Part shown: one piece after another, positions 1 through 11,293 of the stretch | How the letters are laid out: each line of letters opens with the position of its first letter | Numbering within the stretch: position 1 is the stretch's first letter | Source of the DNA: a virus | Virus record (IMG/VR): IMGVR_UViG_3300042485_004778 | Coordinates: 1 to 22,885 of that record | DNA length: 22,885 nucleotides | Reading direction: 5' to 3' (one strand) | Made by a program: the position numbers and the translations under genes | The notes under the pieces: generated by a model | The model's database searches: none | What the model saw: only the letters and a program-made list of their open reading frames with translations | Told to the model about the DNA's origin: nothing

Positions 1-117
1 CGCCAGGCCGTCACTTCCGCCCGAACAATTTCTCGATATCGCCATGGCCGAGCTTCACCAAGCCCGTCCCATGTGCGGATCAATAACGGCGGGCACATAG
101 TGGGTCAAGTCGCGCCC

Positions 118-2657: not shown

Positions 2658-2683
2658 GACCCTCCGTTTGTCACCAGAGGGTC
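2658..2683 (-). other. Stem-loop around the stop codon of the tail fibre gene
   Basis: GACCCTC at 2658-2664 pairs perfectly with GAGGGTC at 2677-2683, leaving a 12-nt loop that contains the TGA stop of the fibre gene. The following bases on the minus strand are purine-rich rather than a U-run, so this is not a standard intrinsic terminator. It could protect the 3' end of the long message or slow the polymerase before the next motif. Confidence 0.4.
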
Positions 2684-5600
2684 CATTTGCATTTCACGTT
2701 CGACATCGAGAAATTGTAGTAATTTCCGCTCATCTCGCGGCGATAGTAGTCGCCCTCATTGATCATCCCGGTATCGCTGGACCCTTTGCGCGAATAGACT
2801 GCCAGGGTGACGTTCCCGACCGAGTTATCCAGGTCGAGATCGTCGAAAATCGTGGTGATATCCGCAGAGAAATTCTGCGCGCCATAGACCGATAGCCGCG
2901 TGCCGGTCCAACTCTTCTGCGCGATCGTCTGGCCATTCTTGGTGAGAGCAATCAGCAGGCCGCCATCATTGAGATAGTCGATATAATATGGTTTCCCGCT
3001 CTGCGTCATGGTCTGGCGGCCGCTCGTGTAGGTGAAGCCGATCGAACCGGTTAGCTGGTAGCTGCCATTCGCGATCGTCACGCCAAGGTCGGCCGCATAC
3101 ATCAGCCTGGCGTCGCTGGCGTTGGCCGACGCAGGACCAATTTTCTTCACGAAACGCGACAGGTCCAGCGCCTCCGGATTGATCGTCCCGCCAATCATTG
3201 CGTTACCGCTGATGCGAAGATCGCCGATGATATCGACGCCCGCACCGCCATTCGCATCGGCAACCAGGCGAAGCTGCGCACGATTTCCAGCCGCAACAGC
3301 ATCGACCTGGAAAAAGGCCGTCGTGCGCCCACGAATGTCGGACACCGCGCCCATCGTCTGGCTGACGTTCGCTTCGGCGGCCTGGAGACGGGTCGTGTGG
3401 TTGGCAATCGTCGAGTTGGCGGTCGCGATGGCGGTCTGCTGGGTGTTGATCGTCGCTTGCTGACTAGCCGCAACAGCACCGCTGCCACCAGGCGAGTAGG
3501 CGCAGGGGGTTGGGGCGGTCGCGAATGTCTCGCGAACCTGGGGGCGCAAGAACCATGCCCAGCTATCCGCCTGGCCGCCAAATGTGCCGAATTTGCGCAG
3601 ATACAGGCGGGCCTTGACCGCGTCGGCAGGCGCTTGTCCTTTGAATCCTACTTGGGTCCAGTTGCTCATGTTCGTGCCACCGCTGAGCGGAGTCAGGACA
3701 CCAGATGATGGAGTCGATACAGCACCACCAGAAGCATTTTGGAACTGGAGATAGATTTGCACCTGGCAGCGATGCGCAGCAACCAACACCGAGACATCAT
3801 ACCACTGGTTCGGCTGAACCGTGATATTCTGCATCCAATCTGAACTCCCCGTGGCGCCGCTGCTCTGCTGATAGATGCTGATGGCATTCGCAAATTCAGG
3901 ATGCCAATCGTTGCCGCCGCCATTGATCGGAAACACGACATTCGACTGGCTGTTCATGCCAGTCCACCAACCTGACGTATCGACCGCAAAGTCGGTATTT
4001 TGGAGCAAGTTGCCCCCCGCCGTGCTGTATTGCGCCGTCAGGTTTGCCTGCGTCGTCGCCGTGGATGCTGCCGAGGATGCAGTCGCGGCCGATCCCGCCG
4101 CTGCACTCGCGCTCGACGATGCTTCGCCAGCCCTGATATTCGCGGTGTTCGCGCTGTTCGACGCGGACGTGGCGGACTGCCCCGCCTCCCCCGCCTTCGT
4201 GCTGGCCGTGCTGGCGCTCGAAGCAGCAGCAGACGCAGAACCTGCCGCGCTATTGCTTTCGGTGATGTCTTCAATCCGCAGGGCGACAACGCGGGCATCG
4301 TGGATCGAACCGGCCTGGCCAGCATCGTTCTGCGATTGCACGAAAGGTTTGAACCGGAGAACCGTGGCGGGAATGGCCAAGTTGAAGTCGAAGGCGGTCC
4401 AGGTCGTGACACCAGCGTTTGCGGCGCGCGAATATGGAAAGGTGAACGATCCGCTGGCCAACTGGCCTTGGATGCCAACGTTGACCGGATAAGATGCAGA
4501 TGATCCGCCTTTTGCGTAGCCAGAAACGCGGAGGATGCGGACGCCGTTGCCAGGCATCGGGATGAAATCGCCTTCAGCGGCGTCACGCGCCTGCGAGCGG
4601 AGCGCCCTGCTCGTGCCAATCGCCGAGTTCGCGTCCGCAACGACGGACACCGTGCCGGTCCACATGCCCTTATCGCCATCCTCGAAAGTGGGCTTGGCGA
4701 CCAGATTACCCGCCGCGCGCGATGATGCGTAAAGCGCCTGGCTGCTCGCGACGGCGGCACTATTGGCAGCATTCGAGGCTTGGGTGCTGGCGGTGCTGGC
4801 GCTCGACTGTGCGGCCGACGCGCTGCCCCCGGCTGCGCTGGCTGAATTTGCGGCATTCGACGCCTGGGTCGAGGCCGTGTTCGCCGATCCCGCAGCATTA
4901 TTCGCCGACGTGCTGGCCTGGCTGGCGCTCGTGGAGGCCTGTCCCGCGCTGGTCGCCGCATTGGTGGCGTTAGTCTGCGCGGATGATGCGCTGCTCGCTG
5001 CCCCAGCCTGGCTCGCGGACGCCTGTGAAGCGCTATTGGCAGCAGCGCTCGCCGAACCTGCCGCACCAGTGCTTTCGGTGATATCCTCGATCCGGACGTA
5101 GGAATAATCGACCGTTACGGTGGACGAAGCTGCCATCAGCCGCAGCAGCGAACGGATGCTGGATGCGCCAGCCGCGATCATTGCGTTGGTCGTGGATGCC
5201 GGAACGGTGCCGGACATTTCGACCCACTGATTCAACGCGGTGAAGGTATAAGTAGACTGGACGGTGCCATTTTGCAGCGTGCCACCAGTCGAATTCACGC
5301 CGATCCGGTAAAGCTGAAGCTGCGCGAAAACGGAGCCGCTCTGCTGTCGGACTTTCGCGCTGATCCGATAAATCCGGTCAGGCTGAAGCTGGATCATGCC
5401 GATCTGCGACACGTCTGTCTGCGTTGACGCCGTGACGCGCATCGTCCGGCCAACATCGCTGTTGTTGACGAATGAGAAGGTCGAGTTCGGGGTGATCGAG
5501 GTCAGCGAGGCGGGCAGACCGCCAAAGCCATTTTGCCAAAACTTCCCATCTTGTTGAAAGTCCGAAGGCATCTGCGATGCAGCCGTGAGCTTGGCAGATA

Positions 5601-8600
5601 CGTCCGACGAATTTGCGGCGGTGGCCGAATTACCCGCCGCGTTTGACGAGCTAGACGCGCTAGACGCACTATTCGCGGCAGACGATGCAGATGCGGCGGC
5701 TTCGTTGGCTTTGCTCGATGCTGTGTTGGCCGATTGGGTCGCACTGTTCGCGCTCGTCCCCGCGTTAGTCGCGGAAGTGCCTGCGGCCGACGCAGAGGTC
5801 GCCGCCGCGCTCGCCGATCCAGCGGCAGCAGTGCTGTCGGTAACGTCGGTGACACTCAGGCCAGTAGCGCGGAGATCATGGTCGCTCGCACCGGACGCGC
5901 CGTCCGATACGACGCAGTATCGGATTTTGGCAGTGGTGGCGGGGATCGTTACAACTTCGTCAATATAGCTCCAAACCTTGGAGTTGGCGGGAGTTGCCCC
6001 ACGCAAAATCCAATTGTTTGTGCCCGCTGCGTCCTGAATTTGGACACCCATGCTGGCTTTATATGCACCAAACGACAGGAGGTGTCCGGTAAGCCGCACC
6101 TTACGTTCAGTTGAAAAGGGCCACGGCGAAAGCTCGCCTTCATAGCTGTCACGGTTCTTCAATTGGAGAACGCGAGTGGAGCCATCTGGCGGCGTGAAGC
6201 CAGTTGTGATCGTGGATACGCTGCCGCCCCACTCGCCAACAGAGCCATCCGAAAAGACCCCCTTTTTGATCAAATTTCCGGCTGCGTGACTGGCTGCGGT
6301 CAGCGCCTGTGCGCTTGCAACCGCCGCGCTGTTCCCGGACTCGCTCGCTTTAGTGCTGGCGGTGGATGCTGATCCCGCCGCAGCGGTGGCAGACCCACCG
6401 GCCGCATTCGCCGAATTCGCAGCGTTTGTCGCCGAAGTCGCCGCAGCATTTTTCGAAGCGTTTGCGTTCGTTTCGCTGGTCGCGGCCTGGCTGGCAGACG
6501 TGCTGGCTTCACCGGCTTTTGTAATCGCGGTGTTCGCTTGGGTGGTGGCCGTCGAGGCGGATTGACTGGCCTCTGTCGCCTTTGTCGAAGCGGTCGAGGC
6601 GCTGGTGGCAGCAGCATCAGCCTTTTGACCGGCTGTAGTCGCGGAGGTGGCAGCAGCGGTCTGCGACGATTTCGCCGCATTCTCTGATCCCTTGGCGTTT
6701 GTCTCGCTGGTCGCCGCATTCGTCGCGCTGGTCGATGCTTTACCGGCCTGCGTCGTCGCAGTAGTGGCAGAATTCTGGGCAGCGGTGGCGGATTGTCCGG
6801 CCGCAGACGCGCTGGTCGAAGCCGCCGAGGCGCTCGTGGCAGCAGCATCCGCGCTGTCCTGAGAATCATCAGCAGCAGATTGCGCCGAAACCTGCGACGC
6901 AGAGGCTGCGGTGGCAGATTTGGCTGCATCCGTCGCTTTCGTGCTGGCCGTCGAGGCGCTACCCGCCGCAGCCGTCGCCGAACCAGCGGCGTTTGACGCT
7001 TGGGTTTGAGCCTGGCTTTTCGCGGTTTCAGCGGCCGTCTGTGCAGCCTGGGCTGCATTCTTCGCGGTCGTCGAATTCGCGAACGCGGTTTCGGTATCGG
7101 CCTTCGCCGCCTGCGCTGCGCTCTTGGCGCTTTCAGCGGCAGTTTTGGCCGACTGTGCGTTGGTGTTGGCCGTGCCAGCATTCGTGGCGGCGGTCTGAGC
7201 CTGGCCCCTCGCCGTTTCCGCAGCGGTCTTGGCCGCCACGGCGTCGGTTTCGGCTTTTTCAGCATCGGTCTTCGCCTGGGCGGCATTGGTCGCGGCGGTC
7301 TGAGCATTCGCTTCATGCTGGGCAGCAGCGTCCGCGCTTGCGGCGGCAGCGGCGGTCGAACCATAGGTGGCCTGGAGATCGGCGATCTCGCTTTCCGCAC
7401 CCTGGAAGGCAGCGTCGAGCGTCGCGAATTTCTGCTGGAGCGTGGTGGTCTTCGTGACCGTCTCTTCGACCGTCTCCTTGACCGTTTCGAGATCGGTGGC
7501 AACATCATCGACCTTGCCGATCGCGGTGGAAGCGTCGGCCGCAGCCTGGTCAGCAGCGCCCTTCGCATCGTCGGCGGTATCCTGTGCATTGCCTGCGCGC
7601 GCGGCGGTGACATCTGCGATCTTGTTCTGGAGCGCGACGTAGCGCGAGACGTATGACGACCATGTCAAATTGAACTGCGCACGATCGATAGGCGTGGCTG
7701 CGCTGCCATCGTTCCAGGCAGGCGACAGGCCGTTGAGATAGGCGGTCAGCCCATCAAAAGCGGCGACATAGCTGGTCACCTGAGTGGTGATCCCCAACGC
7801 CTGCGCCTGGATTACCAGGGCGGTCTTGGTCGTCGATGCTTCAGCGTAATCGCGCTCCAGGCGCTTTTTTTCCGCACGATCGAGCCAAGCGTCTTCGCTC
7901 ATCTCGTTGATCTGACTGATCAACACTGCGCCATCAGCCTGCGCTTGTTCGGCCGCTTCCTGGGCGGCTTCGGCAGCTTGGCGCGCGGCCTGCGCGTCTT
8001 CAGAAATCGTCGTAAGAGCGCCACTGACCTCGTTGGCCGAATGGACCGACCAGCAACGCGAATGACCGACGCGGACGCTGTGGACGATCGACGGCGAGGC
8101 GATCAGGCGCGGAGCCGACAGGACCGTCCGTTCGCGGCTGCTGTCGAGATAGAGATCAGACGGCGCAGAGTTCGCCAGAAAACTACCAGCGGCCAGGACG
8201 CCATCGGTCTTGGAAATCAGGTAGCCGCCAAGCTCGTAAAGCGCGCGGCGCACAAGATCGCCGACCGTGGTTTCATCGCTGACATATGCGCACCAGGGCT
8301 GGTCGAACGCTGCCAGCGATGCCGTGTCGAGACCAGACGCGGCGATGCCTGCCTGCTCGCTCAGATGTGCGACAATGTCGGCCAAAGAAGTCGGGAAATT
8401 CGTCCCTCGCTTCGCACCACCGACATCGGCGGTGATCTTACCCGTCGGTTCGGCGCCAAGCAGGAAGCCGCCAGCGCCCGGAACATCGACCCATTCACCA
8501 GGTGCGGGGGCAGCAGCGATGGCCTGGGCCAGCGTATTGACGCGAGCCTTCGCGGCGGGAAGCTGGAGCGCATTTTCATAGACGGCGCGAGTGCCATCGG

Positions 8601-9168
8601 CGGCGCCATATCCGTGGAACTGGTAGAACCAAAATTGACCTTCATAGAGTTTGACCGGCTCGACGTTCTGGCATTCGCCTGAAGTCCAGGGCTTGCGGCG
8701 ATTGCGGACACCAGCCGGACCCTCGACACCACCGGTGCCCAGATAAACGCCAGATAGAAGCTCGACATCCAGGTAGGCTTCAGCGCCAAGCAGAGTGACG
8801 GTCGCGATATCATCGGTGATCTCAAGGCCGCTGATCGAGCCTTCGAACCATTGTCCGCCGAGACCATCGCCTTCGCCGATCCAGATGCGGCCCAGCGCAC
8901 CAGACCAGGACAGTTTCGCCCATTCCGGATTTCCGATGATGGAAAAGCTGATCGACCCGTGATCGGTGGAGACCTGGGAGAAATTCCCGCCCGCCATGAC
9001 ATCGACGGTGCGGGTCGGCCATTCGGTGATGACCGGCTCCCATTCGTAGCCGTCCGCCTGGGTCGCTTCGCCACCCATGGCGTCGATGGAAGTCAGTCGA
9101 AGAGTTTTGGTGCTGCGGTCGCTCGGATCGATGACCGAGACTTCAAAATGGATATTTCTGTTGATCAC
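2671..9168 (-). CDS. Giant modular tail fibre / tail tip (gpJ-like) protein
   Basis: This 2165-residue protein is probably the central tail tip and receptor-binding fibre. Residues 1-380 form the tail-attached N-terminal region. Residues 385-600 contain helical, coiled-coil-prone stretches. Residues 600-960 are a very long Ala/Ser/Thr-rich stalk. Four beta-rich domains follow, at about 962-1110, 1205-1365, 1495-1637 and 1718-1890, separated by shorter Ala/Ser stalks. Each looks like a carbohydrate-binding jelly roll, opening with motifs such as AAGNLI or GGNLLQN and, in three cases, closing on a DITES-like hinge. Residues 1945-2005 (FFQVDAVAAGNRAQLRLVAD) resemble the DUF1983 region of lambda gpJ-type proteins, and the last 150 residues are likely the tip. 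The GTG start lies four bases after TAAATA with no Shine-Dalgarno sequence. Confidence 0.85.
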   Translation of the reverse strand: MINRNIHFEVSVIDPSDRSTKTLRLTSIDAMGGEATQADGYEWEPVITEWPTRTVDVMAGGNFSQVSTDHGSISFSIIGNPEWAKLSWSGALGRIWIGEGDGLGGQWFEGSISGLEITDDIATVTLLGAEAYLDVELLSGVYLGTGGVEGPAGVRNRRKPWTSGECQNVEPVKLYEGQFWFYQFHGYGAADGTRAVYENALQLPAAKARVNTLAQAIAAAPAPGEWVDVPGAGGFLLGAEPTGKITADVGGAKRGTNFPTSLADIVAHLSEQAGIAASGLDTASLAAFDQPWCAYVSDETTVGDLVRRALYELGGYLISKTDGVLAAGSFLANSAPSDLYLDSSRERTVLSAPRLIASPSIVHSVRVGHSRCWSVHSANEVSGALTTISEDAQAARQAAEAAQEAAEQAQADGAVLISQINEMSEDAWLDRAEKKRLERDYAEASTTKTALVIQAQALGITTQVTSYVAAFDGLTAYLNGLSPAWNDGSAATPIDRAQFNLTWSSYVSRYVALQNKIADVTAARAGNAQDTADDAKGAADQAAADASTAIGKVDDVATDLETVKETVEETVTKTTTLQQKFATLDAAFQGAESEIADLQATYGSTAAAAASADAAAQHEANAQTAATNAAQAKTDAEKAETDAVAAKTAAETARGQAQTAATNAGTANTNAQSAKTAAESAKSAAQAAKADTETAFANSTTAKNAAQAAQTAAETAKSQAQTQASNAAGSATAAAGSASTASTKATDAAKSATAASASQVSAQSAADDSQDSADAAATSASAASTSASAAGQSATAAQNSATTATTQAGKASTSATNAATSETNAKGSENAAKSSQTAAATSATTAGQKADAAATSASTASTKATEASQSASTATTQANTAITKAGEASTSASQAATSETNANASKNAAATSATNAANSANAAGGSATAAAGSASTASTKASESGNSAAVASAQALTAASHAAGNLIKKGVFSDGSVGEWGGSVSTITTGFTPPDGSTRVLQLKNRDSYEGELSPWPFSTERKVRLTGHLLSFGAYKASMGVQIQDAAGTNNWILRGATPANSKVWSYIDEVVTIPATTAKIRYCVVSDGASGASDHDLRATGLSVTDVTDSTAAAGSASAAATSASAAGTSATNAGTSANSATQSANTASSKANEAAASASSAANSASSASSSSNAAGNSATAANSSDVSAKLTAASQMPSDFQQDGKFWQNGFGGLPASLTSITPNSTFSFVNNSDVGRTMRVTASTQTDVSQIGMIQLQPDRIYRISAKVRQQSGSVFAQLQLYRIGVNSTGGTLQNGTVQSTYTFTALNQWVEMSGTVPASTTNAMIAAGASSIRSLLRLMAASSTVTVDYSYVRIEDITESTGAAGSASAAANSASQASASQAGAASSASSAQTNATNAATSAGQASTSASQASTSANNAAGSANTASTQASNAANSASAAGGSASAAQSSASTASTQASNAANSAAVASSQALYASSRAAGNLVAKPTFEDGDKGMWTGTVSVVADANSAIGTSRALRSQARDAAEGDFIPMPGNGVRILRVSGYAKGGSSASYPVNVGIQGQLASGSFTFPYSRAANAGVTTWTAFDFNLAIPATVLRFKPFVQSQNDAGQAGSIHDARVVALRIEDITESNSAAGSASAAASSASTASTKAGEAGQSATSASNSANTANIRAGEASSSASAAAGSAATASSAASTATTQANLTAQYSTAGGNLLQNTDFAVDTSGWWTGMNSQSNVVFPINGGGNDWHPEFANAISIYQQSSGATGSSDWMQNITVQPNQWYDVSVLVAAHRCQVQIYLQFQNASGGAVSTPSSGVLTPLSGGTNMSNWTQVGFKGQAPADAVKARLYLRKFGTFGGQADSWAWFLRPQVRETFATAPTPCAYSPGGSGAVAASQQATINTQQTAIATANSTIANHTTRLQAAEANVSQTMGAVSDIRGRTTAFFQVDAVAAGNRAQLRLVADANGGAGVDIIGDLRISGNAMIGGTINPEALDLSRFVKKIGPASANASDARLMYAADLGVTIANGSYQLTGSIGFTYTSGRQTMTQSGKPYYIDYLNDGGLLIALTKNGQTIAQKSWTGTRLSVYGAQNFSADITTIFDDLDLDNSVGNVTLAVYSRKGSSDTGMINEGDYYRREMSGNYYNFSMSNVKCKWTLW
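4024..7371 (-). repeat. Low-complexity Ala/Ser/Thr stalk repeats alternating with beta domains
   Basis: Inside the fibre gene, degenerate repeats encode runs of the type SASxASTxA. The blocks correspond to residues of about 600-960 (6289-7371), 1113-1200 (5569-5832), 1366-1490 (4699-5073) and 1640-1715 (4024-4251). Such runs are known from phage side-tail fibres and form slender trimeric helical stalks. The alternation of stalk and beta domain implies internal duplication of a stalk-plus-domain unit, and it makes the DNA prone to recombination and to misassembly. Confidence 0.75.
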
Positions 9169-9183
9169 CGGCTATTTAGCCGG
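9168..9183. other. Perfect 16-bp palindrome centred on a TAAATA motif
   Basis: CCGGCTATTTAGCCGG is its own reverse complement apart from the central TT/AA geometry, and it overlaps the first base of the GTG start of the fibre gene. It could be an operator for a dimeric protein or a short hairpin at the 5' end of the fibre message. Confidence 0.45.
9173..9178 (-). promoter_or_regulatory. Late-promoter-like TAAATA motif before the tail fibre gene
   Basis: TAAATA is followed by GCCG and the GTG start at 9168. It would restart transcription downstream of the oppositely oriented PIN gene, so the fibre gene need not depend on reading through that insert. Confidence 0.5.
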
Positions 9184-9256
9184 ACGGTCCTTCGCTGATG
9201 GCCGTTGACACCGTGGCGGGAATTTTCGACGAGACGGTATCAGCAAGGGGGAAGTG

Positions 9257-10576
9257 ATGTCGGAAGCGAAGCCGCAGCAAAATCAGGAACGACAGAAAGC
9301 GCGCAATGCCGACGTGTCAGTCGATGATGCATTCTGGCTAACCGATCTCTACCCCGATCCCTTAGCTCTAATATCTCACAACATCGTTGACCTAGCGGAC
9401 GTAACGCCCGACTGCATAGTCGTTCTTGACGGAAACATTTTGCTTTGGCCGTATGAATATTCAACTTCGTCTCTCAAAGCCGTTGAAGATGTTTACAGCA
9501 AGCTTGCCAAAGAAGGGCGACTTATCGTTCCAGCACAGTCAATTCGTGAATACTATAAACATCGCAGCAATAAAGTTGCTGCGATATCTGAAAAAATCGA
9601 CGGCGTTTCGAAAAGGCAAAATTTTCAGGTTTTCGATAAAATATCAATATTGGAAGATGACAACGATTATATAGAAGCACGCAAACTAGCCTCTGAAATT
9701 GTTAATATCGGCAAAAACATATCTGAGAAATTGAATAAGATAAACAAGCGCCTGAAGGATGGGATTGGATCGGACCCCGTATCAATTATCTATAGAGAAG
9801 CATTTGAAGACTGCATTTTCGAAATACCTCTTCAACCCGCAGATAGGCAGGAGCTTCTTCTCGATGCCAAGCGCCGTTCGAGGTTAGGAATCGCGCCCGG
9901 CTTCAAAGATGACGGTAAGGCTGATGGCGGCGTAGGAGACTTGATTATCTGGAAAACCTTGATCCAGGAGGCAAAGACGCGAAAGCGCCATGCAATTCTC
10001 GTCACAGATGAATCGAAAAACGATTGGTGGGTTCGATCGAACGGCGCTTATCACCCTAGGCCTGAACTAATTGAAGAATTTAGACGAGAGACCGAAGGAC
10101 TTACACTTCACATGGTCCCTCTATCTGGTCTTCTTGCTGCATTCAAAAGCCCAACGGCGGTTGTTGAGCAGGCCAGGCGGCTGGAAAAGAAGGCAAATAA
10201 TGTCATTGAACAAATCCTGACAGATAGCCCAAAAACCACCAACGTATTGATGCGCAGGACGAGAGATAGAATAAAAGAACGAATTAGAGCACTTGAAGCA
10301 GAAATTTCTCTTCTCCAGTATCAGCGCGATGAAACAATCAGCCGGACTGATATTGCAGATTTCGATAAGGCCGACCGCATCAACACACTATCAAACGAAA
10401 TTCGAAAGTCACACAGAGAGCTAGGAAAACTCAACGGCCTTATCCATGAACATGAGATGGCTCTTGATAAAAGCGCACCCATCAGTCGTTCATCTGGTTT
10501 TGACGAGACCTACGAACAGCTATTTGGCAAATCATTTTCATTAAGGGGCAACGGCGGTGACGGCGAGGATGATTGA
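9257..10576 (+). CDS. PIN-like nuclease (PIN_8 / DUF4935-like), moron and candidate defence gene
   Basis: This 439-residue protein has the four acidic positions of a PIN-type metal-dependent ribonuclease: Asp58 in VVLDGNILL, Glu98 in SIREYYKHR, Asp228 in GVGDLIIWK and Asp251 in ILVTDESKNDWW. The block from GFKDDGK to DWW is typical of the PIN_8 subgroup. A long charged insert (about 105-200) separates the second and third motifs, and residues 295-410 are coiled-coil-like. The ATG at 9257 has an AAGGGGGA Shine-Dalgarno sequence; a GTG at 9254 is an alternative. The gene opposes the flanking tail genes and is clearly more AT-rich, suggesting transfer. Its last 36 bp overlap the end of the converging tail gene. 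A defence or superinfection-exclusion role is inferred. Confidence 0.8.
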   Translation: MSEAKPQQNQERQKARNADVSVDDAFWLTDLYPDPLALISHNIVDLADVTPDCIVVLDGNILLWPYEYSTSSLKAVEDVYSKLAKEGRLIVPAQSIREYYKHRSNKVAAISEKIDGVSKRQNFQVFDKISILEDDNDYIEARKLASEIVNIGKNISEKLNKINKRLKDGIGSDPVSIIYREAFEDCIFEIPLQPADRQELLLDAKRRSRLGIAPGFKDDGKADGGVGDLIIWKTLIQEAKTRKRHAILVTDESKNDWWVRSNGAYHPRPELIEEFRRETEGLTLHMVPLSGLLAAFKSPTAVVEQARRLEKKANNVIEQILTDSPKTTNVLMRRTRDRIKERIRALEAEISLLQYQRDETISRTDIADFDKADRINTLSNEIRKSHRELGKLNGLIHEHEMALDKSAPISRSSGFDETYEQLFGKSFSLRGNGGDGEDD

Positions 10577-11293
10577 CCAATAGTCCACCCCTTCGCTGGT
10601 GCCTTCGGCCTTCGCTGTGATCCGCCCGAACACGATGGAGTTCTGCCTGGGGCTTTCATCGTCGGGCACGAATAGCAGCGGGAGGGAGGTGCCCACTTGC
10701 GCGAAGAATGGCATCCATTCGTCATAATAGGCGTCGTCACTCTCCACGGTGATGGTGGCGCGCCAGGACGGTAGGCGCTTGTATGTGCGGAATTCCTGGT
10801 AGTTCACGCCCGCCACGGCGGGACTGTTATCCTCGACCGAGAATTTCGCATCATAGTCCAGGCCACTGCACCGAACCGCACGTCCGACCACTAGCCGCTG
10901 CGCTTCGAAGACCTTTGGCGATGACGACGAGACGGTCACACGGATGTAGCGGAACGATCGCGCGGGGAACGATGCGATCGTCTTGGTGGAAATAAGGTCG
11001 GACTTATTGCCGACATAACCTGGCACTGAGATCGGCGCGGCGGCATCAAGCCCGGCCAAAGTGTCGGCAAACCGGACGAACATCACGTCCGAATATGCCA
11101 GATTACTGCCGACCAGGGCGACGGTATCGATGATACGACCGTTGCCGCTGATGTCGATCGACGCAGAGGTGGCGGATGATGAACGCCAGACCTTCGCGGG
11201 ATGGTCCTTCGCAAGGTTCGTGGCGGGAGCAGTAGAGGATTGATCAGCCCGCTCGATCTTCACCGGCGCGGGTGCCAGGACATACGCGCCCAT
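10541..11293 (-). CDS. Tail tip-associated protein, beta-rich
   Basis: The 250-residue product lies between the tape measure region and the giant fibre, where distal-tail and tip-assembly genes sit in siphoviruses. It looks beta-rich. Residues 35-150 contain a stretch resembling a galactose-binding or discoidin-like fold (ASIDISGNGRIIDTVALVGS, then RSFRYIRVTVSSSS). The C-terminal part (RATITVESDDAYYDEWMPFF) resembles distal-tail-type domains. The ATG at 11293 follows the stop of the previous gene by two bases, with GAGGG nearby as a ribosome site. Its final codons overlap the converging PIN gene by 36 bp. The exact role, hub or fibre anchor, is inferred from position. Confidence 0.65.
   Translation of the reverse strand: MGAYVLAPAPVKIERADQSSTAPATNLAKDHPAKVWRSSSATSASIDISGNGRIIDTVALVGSNLAYSDVMFVRFADTLAGLDAAAPISVPGYVGNKSDLISTKTIASFPARSFRYIRVTVSSSSPKVFEAQRLVVGRAVRCSGLDYDAKFSVEDNSPAVAGVNYQEFRTYKRLPSWRATITVESDDAYYDEWMPFFAQVGTSLPLLFVPDDESPRQNSIVFGRITAKAEGTSEGVDYWSIILAVTAVAP

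Follow-up and report, generated by a model that had tools for sequence, protein, structure and literature searches.

The gene P0001, at positions 9257 to 10576 of a 22,885-base virus fragment from IMG/VR (this whole stretch is termed the window), is most likely an exchangeable prophage cargo gene that encodes a one-protein anti-phage PIN RNase. We put at roughly 55% the probability of the full reading, in which P0001 is accessory cargo of a sphingomonad temperate phage and acts as a one-protein anti-phage nuclease with a variable sensor tail. The late genes occupy the minus strand and encode portal, head and capsid proteins, tail tube, chaperones, tape measure, two tail-tip proteins and a fibre-like protein; P0001 is read from the plus strand, head-on to them, in a slot between P0003 and P0002, that is, on the opposite strand inside the tail-tip module, where the first-pass annotation had placed it. 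The features referred to below are as follows.

11–61, minus strand: last 16 codons and stop codon of a host mutL gene, a probable prophage–host junction, from sphingomonad matches
2671–9168, minus strand: P0002, a 2165-aa fibre-like protein with CBM_4_9 domains and its own CTAAATA start motif at 9173–9179
9169–9256, plus strand: intergenic leader common to the window and the relative phage G001, with TTGACA at 9205–9210, a Shine-Dalgarno-like AAGGGGG and no clear −10
9257–10576, plus strand: PIN_8 nuclease gene P0001, 439 aa, with ATG at 9257 and stop codon at 10574–10576
9317–9406, plus strand: codons 21–50, the subfamily N-terminal motif DDAFWLTDLYPD..L..H
9360–10545, no strand: exchanged cassette, with an identity to G001 of 0.25–0.85 (mostly <0.7) against 0.73–0.97 in the flanks, in 60-base windows
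9413–10156, plus strand: PIN fold, residues 53–300, from alignment and structure model
9428–9430, 9548–9550, 9938–9940 and 10022–10024, plus strand: codons of the catalytic-site acids D58, E98, D228 and D256
10157–10573, plus strand: hypervariable C-terminal helical hairpin (coiled-coil) plus a low-confidence end
10541–11293, minus strand: P0003, late tail-tip gene matching phrog_8610 (unknown function), with a 36-base overlap between its 3′ end and the PIN gene

A Pfam profile search matched residues 54–271 of P0001 to PIN_8 (PF18476) with an E value of 1.5e-38 and 133.5 bits against a cut-off of 26.1, and the profile was covered end to end (1–227 of 227), which bears out the claim, made earlier from the letters alone, of a complete PIN_8-type protein. 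PIN_12 scored weakly and stayed under its cut-off. Residues 46–364 matched phrog_9788, for which PHROGs lists the function as unknown; neither the PF18476 nor the phrog_9788 entry gives a function. No HEPN family appeared in the Pfam scan of P0001, and searches with NCBIfam and PADLOC returned no match in earnest, PADLOC holding no model for this protein. The acidic set shared with PIN_8 was found at D58, E98, D228 and D256, which are invariant in 15 of 15 aligned homologues and also in all ten subfamily members aligned; D256 was taken as the fourth acid because D251 is not invariant. The 15-sequence alignment comprised the window, G001 and 13 of the 14 plasmid matches; the Halomonas match H2, with a reading frame broken up into two ORFs, was for that reason omitted from alignment A2. 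R207, P214, G215, D218, W232 and E274 were invariant in the 15 sequences as well.

The AlphaFold2 model of full-length P0001 (mean pLDDT 74) placed a long helical insert at about residues 121–193 and a coiled-coil hairpin at about 300–406, in line with the insert and coiled-coil tail anticipated by the first reading. With the full model, VIA-align 2 returned PIN proteins intermingled with coiled-coil ones, so a separate model of the PIN part was made (pLDDT 84.6), and its top VIA-align 2 rows were PIN proteins: 1ye5 and VapC4 (5h4h_B) of Pyrococcus (Z 10.5–10.6, rmsd 3.4–3.5, 140–142 residues; VapC4 itself Z 10.5, rmsd 3.4, 142 aligned), VapBC2 of Rickettsia felis (3zvk_B; Z 10.1, rmsd 3.4, 133 aligned), exosome Rrp44 (5k36_K; Z 9.1, rmsd 3.3, 137 aligned), SMG6 (2hww_A; Z 8.4, rmsd 3.7, 132 aligned) and protein-only RNase P (Z 8.3). 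These values support the fold but do not constitute an independent search, since VIA-align 2 worked on the 1000 top-ranked chains of Foldseek and gave them new scores. In Foldseek itself the PIN-only model had no match in the PDB at E <= 0.001, and its five best rows were one protein, PAE2754, which is also in the VIA-align 2 list. No solved structure was matched by sequence with the A6 profile at E <= 0.1. Helical-bundle matches of the full model in Foldseek (dynein, axoneme) were set aside, as they reflect the coiled-coil only. Profile search and structure prediction thus both give PIN, as proposed at first, and for P0001 a predicted PIN fold is supported by structure comparison.

This fold, shared with VapC toxins at Z of about 7–10.5, brings in the possibility that P0001 is an addiction toxin, a VapC-like PIN RNase acting on host tRNA or rRNA that would be released by loss of the prophage or of an antitoxin that went unrecognised. 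The VapC proteins are its closest structural neighbours, and G001 has a separate pair read as HigBA, so addiction cargo exists in this phage group. On the other hand, P0001 has no small co-directional partner, with the opposed fibre gene upstream and the end of P0003 downstream; at 439 aa it is three times longer than the matched VapC chains (about 126–147 aa); and the neighbours differ on either side among subfamily members. Membership in a VapBC toxin–antitoxin pair was ruled out, since no partner gene is adjacent, and an addiction toxin of the wider kind is considered unlikely.

The length of the plus-strand frame alone is weak evidence for a gene, because the antisense strand of other late genes also holds long open frames (up to 526 codons). 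The frame is nevertheless more than chance, given that saturated synonymous sites go together with a conserved PIN core and that ten of ten relatives lie below their own flanks in G+C, five of them by <5 points. P0001 is a real, constrained protein. Its own G+C content is 0.455, compared with 0.589 ± 0.029 for 15 late genes (z −4.6), and its GC3 is 0.44 compared with 0.687 ± 0.046 (z −5.3), in agreement with the visibly different base use reported before.

The slot was compared with that of G001 (IMGVR_UViG_3300034072_001334), since no other close relative spanning it was found; a scan with the fibre N-terminus for further phages with the same tail tip returned G001 only and no phage record, and two candidates found with P0003 (L004 and L005) were dropped as unrelated phages with 33 residues matching. 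The proteins of 14 structural genes are 85–98% identical between G001 and the window and the fibre is 79% identical, at dS values of 0.2–1.0, yet the PIN gene of G001 (P0013), in the same slot and orientation, is only 60% identical to P0001. The two alleles differ in GC3 (0.44 in the window, 0.56 in G001) and both are unlike their neighbours. Between the two phages the first 30 PIN codons are backbone-like (dN 0.014, dS 0.53), whereas in the rest of the gene synonymous sites are saturated or nearly so, and the divergent stretch ends at codon 34–35 and at the P0003 overlap. Because the upstream DNA and the first ~34 codons are common to both phages, the body appears to have been exchanged as a cassette. 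Selection on the PIN protein alone would not saturate synonymous sites, which favours allele exchange by recombination in a shared slot as the simplest account of these sequence patterns. The cargo character postulated by the first-pass annotation is thereby borne out for two near relatives. It had also envisaged different cargo genes at the same locus in related phages; what was found is a different PIN allele in G001, with no different cargo and no empty slot, and the gene is carried by both close phages (2/2) at differing base composition, so that the refuting case named there, presence throughout the relatives at one base composition, does not apply.

The fixed position in these two phages, and a second relative that also lies in a tail module, could be taken to mean that P0001 serves the phage's own lytic cycle, as an RNase for processing late or host mRNA or in regulation of the tail fibre, and sits in this slot by chance. 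Against this are the strand opposite to the late operon, the foreign composition, the allele exchange and the occurrence of relatives at unrelated positions, also in chromosomes; we regard a lytic-cycle role as distinctly improbable. A conserved tail gene was rejected on composition, strand and allele exchange.

Both phages look temperate because pieces of host genes stand at their contig ends, in keeping with the lysogenic carrier supposed earlier. The residues encoded at 11–61 of the window match a protein in each of the four sphingomonad genomes tried (81–94% identity, E 4e-5 to 4e-3), one of which is MutL by Pfam, and G001 starts in a broken radC that is 72% identical to an intact sphingomonad RadC up to residue 142 of 235 and then ends. 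From their sequences the mutL and radC pieces look like prophage–host junctions, one seen per phage. It appears that closely related phages use different host sites, the mutL 3′ end for the window and radC for G001. In G001 the pair reading as HigBA toxin–antitoxin (L018 10156–10929) lies near a gene for a 225-aa serine recombinase and a small terminase gene, and a DUF2971 gene is also carried.

The subfamily that shares the DDAFWLTDLYPD-type motif has 12 members, namely the window, G001, three viral contigs, five genomes, one plasmid-borne prophage and G080; a weak Rhodobacteraceae match (L038) was left out. Nine of the 12 lie in phage-like or recombinase-bearing loci (window, G001, L011, L028, L029, L032, L033, L035 and L036), where most flanking ORFs and, in L032, L033 and L035, the recombinases too were assigned by eye and not profile-scanned; the other three (L034, L037 and G080) are chromosomal, with no phage genes seen nearby. 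In L029 the PIN gene stands between serine recombinase and terminase genes, and the locus also holds a CBASS cyclase (E 2.1e-154), a 2TM effector and the KAP ATPase of the candidate system PDC-S20. In the sphingomonad elements L029, L032, L033 and L035 the PIN gene shares its region with a DUF2958-like gene and one for a serine recombinase, and this element family may be a defence hotspot.

A more distant relative was found directly 3′ of dndE on a Pseudoalteromonas megaplasmid, and further contexts were a P2-like tail module, a phage-like Bacillus plasmid, and positions beside SIR2 and beside a GHKL ATPase and an Mrr-helicase. Among the 14 plasmid matches, two are in phage modules and five have defence-type neighbours by annotation or scan (H5, H9, H10, H13 and H14), while in the remaining ones neither a phage module nor a defence neighbour was recognised. 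On the Rhodobacterales plasmids L014 (1642–8483) and L015 (2873–8483), genes for a GHKL ATPase, an Mrr-helicase, an unknown protein and PIN_8 stand together, with an IS3 transposase between the GHKL ATPase and the Mrr-helicase in L014; this set is possibly a multi-gene defence system. An anti-phage role of P0001 is indirectly supported by the CBASS pair and the candidate defence ATPase at L029 and by the dndE neighbour elsewhere.

Of 397 genomes from the host family, 3 carry the gene; the centre genome G003 is one of them, and one match is at E 3e-24 only. The gene was found in 1 of 385 genomes of the class, which is G003 itself, and any PIN_8 was found in 6 of 296 genomes of the order, again including G003. 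A tblastn search of 50,697 phage records with three queries returned no relative. The subfamily is rare, and its members lie for the most part in loci of the prophage type. The solitary chromosomal copies (L034, L037 and G080) would suit a moron for host fitness unrelated to phages, for instance one for stress-induced RNA turnover; the great rarity of the gene in hosts, its hypervariable tail and its defence-gene neighbours speak against such a function, which we hold to be quite unlikely. The preferred reading remains that of anti-phage cargo.

Across 45 pairs from ten homologues, the N-terminal motif has a mean pairwise identity of 58% and the halves of the PIN domain have 57% and 59%; the value is lower for the insert (41%) and lowest for the C-terminal hairpin (17%). 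Judged by these alignments, the PIN core is under purifying selection, and a hypervariable helical tail attached to a conserved catalytic core would be expected of a sensor or of a site of conflict with a phage protein. Compared with PIN_8 and phrog_9788, the subfamily adds the N-terminal motif and the hypervariable coiled-coil tail. In a mechanism of this kind, the PIN domain would probably be a metal-dependent RNase kept inactive in the lysogen, and the fast-changing coiled-coil tail would probably sense an incoming phage component or oligomerise on it; sensing would then free the nuclease, and RNA cleavage would halt the infection. More speculatively, head-on late transcription might silence the PIN gene after induction, so that the prophage would be unharmed.

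Two described systems resemble parts of this locus. In DS-3 of E. coli, a one-protein PIN defence, the PIN catalytic residues are needed, no antitoxin is present and autoinhibition is proposed (PMC13092281); P0001 is like DS-3 in being a single gene lacking an antitoxin, a likeness by description only, and is unlike it in that the DS-3 PIN domain is reported to be divided between the two termini of the protein (PMC13092281). In S. aureus prophages, tail proteins activate the HEPN RNase Tha-1 and Ith-1 shuts it off, antisense transcription being a minor contributor (PMC11087260). Tha/Ith resembles the defence proposed for P0001 in being a prophage-encoded RNase system in which an opposed transcript helps shut-off on induction. 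Tha belongs to the lysogeny operon, where a small inhibitor gene lies antisense (PMC11087260), whereas P0001 is a PIN protein set against late tail genes and no inhibitor was seen. By analogy, the P0001 locus may combine features of DS-3 and Tha/Ith. Literature searches found no description of the P0001 subfamily or its layout and nothing under PF18476 or on a prophage-encoded PIN RNase; among papers on PIN_8 in phages none was on phage defence by title, and in a Dnd paper (PMC10853773) three PIN phrases gave a single hit, within the reference list.

HK97-type morons, such as the gp15 gene for superinfection exclusion, are accessory genes inserted among tail genes; P0001 differs from them in its opposite strand and in encoding a predicted nuclease. 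Single-gene PIN defence is a known kind, to which the present analysis adds the slot, the exchange of the cassette and a subfamily in sphingomonads. Few cases have been worked out (Tha/Ith) that show how prophages carry toxic defence nucleases without self-harm at induction, and the locus offers a compact test, with one gene, one slot and two natural alleles in a nearly identical phage backbone, in which a hypervariable putative sensor is paired with a constant leader. The locus also places in context a nuclease family to which the literature searched assigns no function.

It is conceivable, if rather doubtful, that the slot works as an on/off switch, in which the constant leader and the first 34 codons would drive interchangeable PIN bodies in the lysogen, and head-on late transcription would silence the nuclease while the phage's own tail proteins, otherwise sensed by the coiled-coil, are made. 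If true, this would be a PIN counterpart of Tha/Ith with the late operon replacing the inhibitor gene. In the leader, AAGGGGG stands directly 5′ of the P0001 ATG, and a sigma-70 scan found no promoter for P0001; some 50 bases upstream there is only the TTGACA. Because P0002 has its own start-site motif, the fibre could do without read-through across the inserted PIN gene.

P0002 contains long Ala/Ser/Thr-rich repeats and four CBM_4_9 stretches, and its distal part diverges from that of G001 (71% identity versus 93% at the N-terminus). Its start motif, CTAAATA, occurs five times in the window (117, 2640, 9173, 15768 and 20991) compared with 0.25 expected, and seven and four times in two G001 stretches compared with 0.41 and 0.17 expected, mostly 4–5 bases ahead of the GTG or ATG start of a phage gene. 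CTAAATA resembles the T4 late TATAAATA box; it may serve leaderless genes as the −10 of a late promoter, or it may be a signal for translation.
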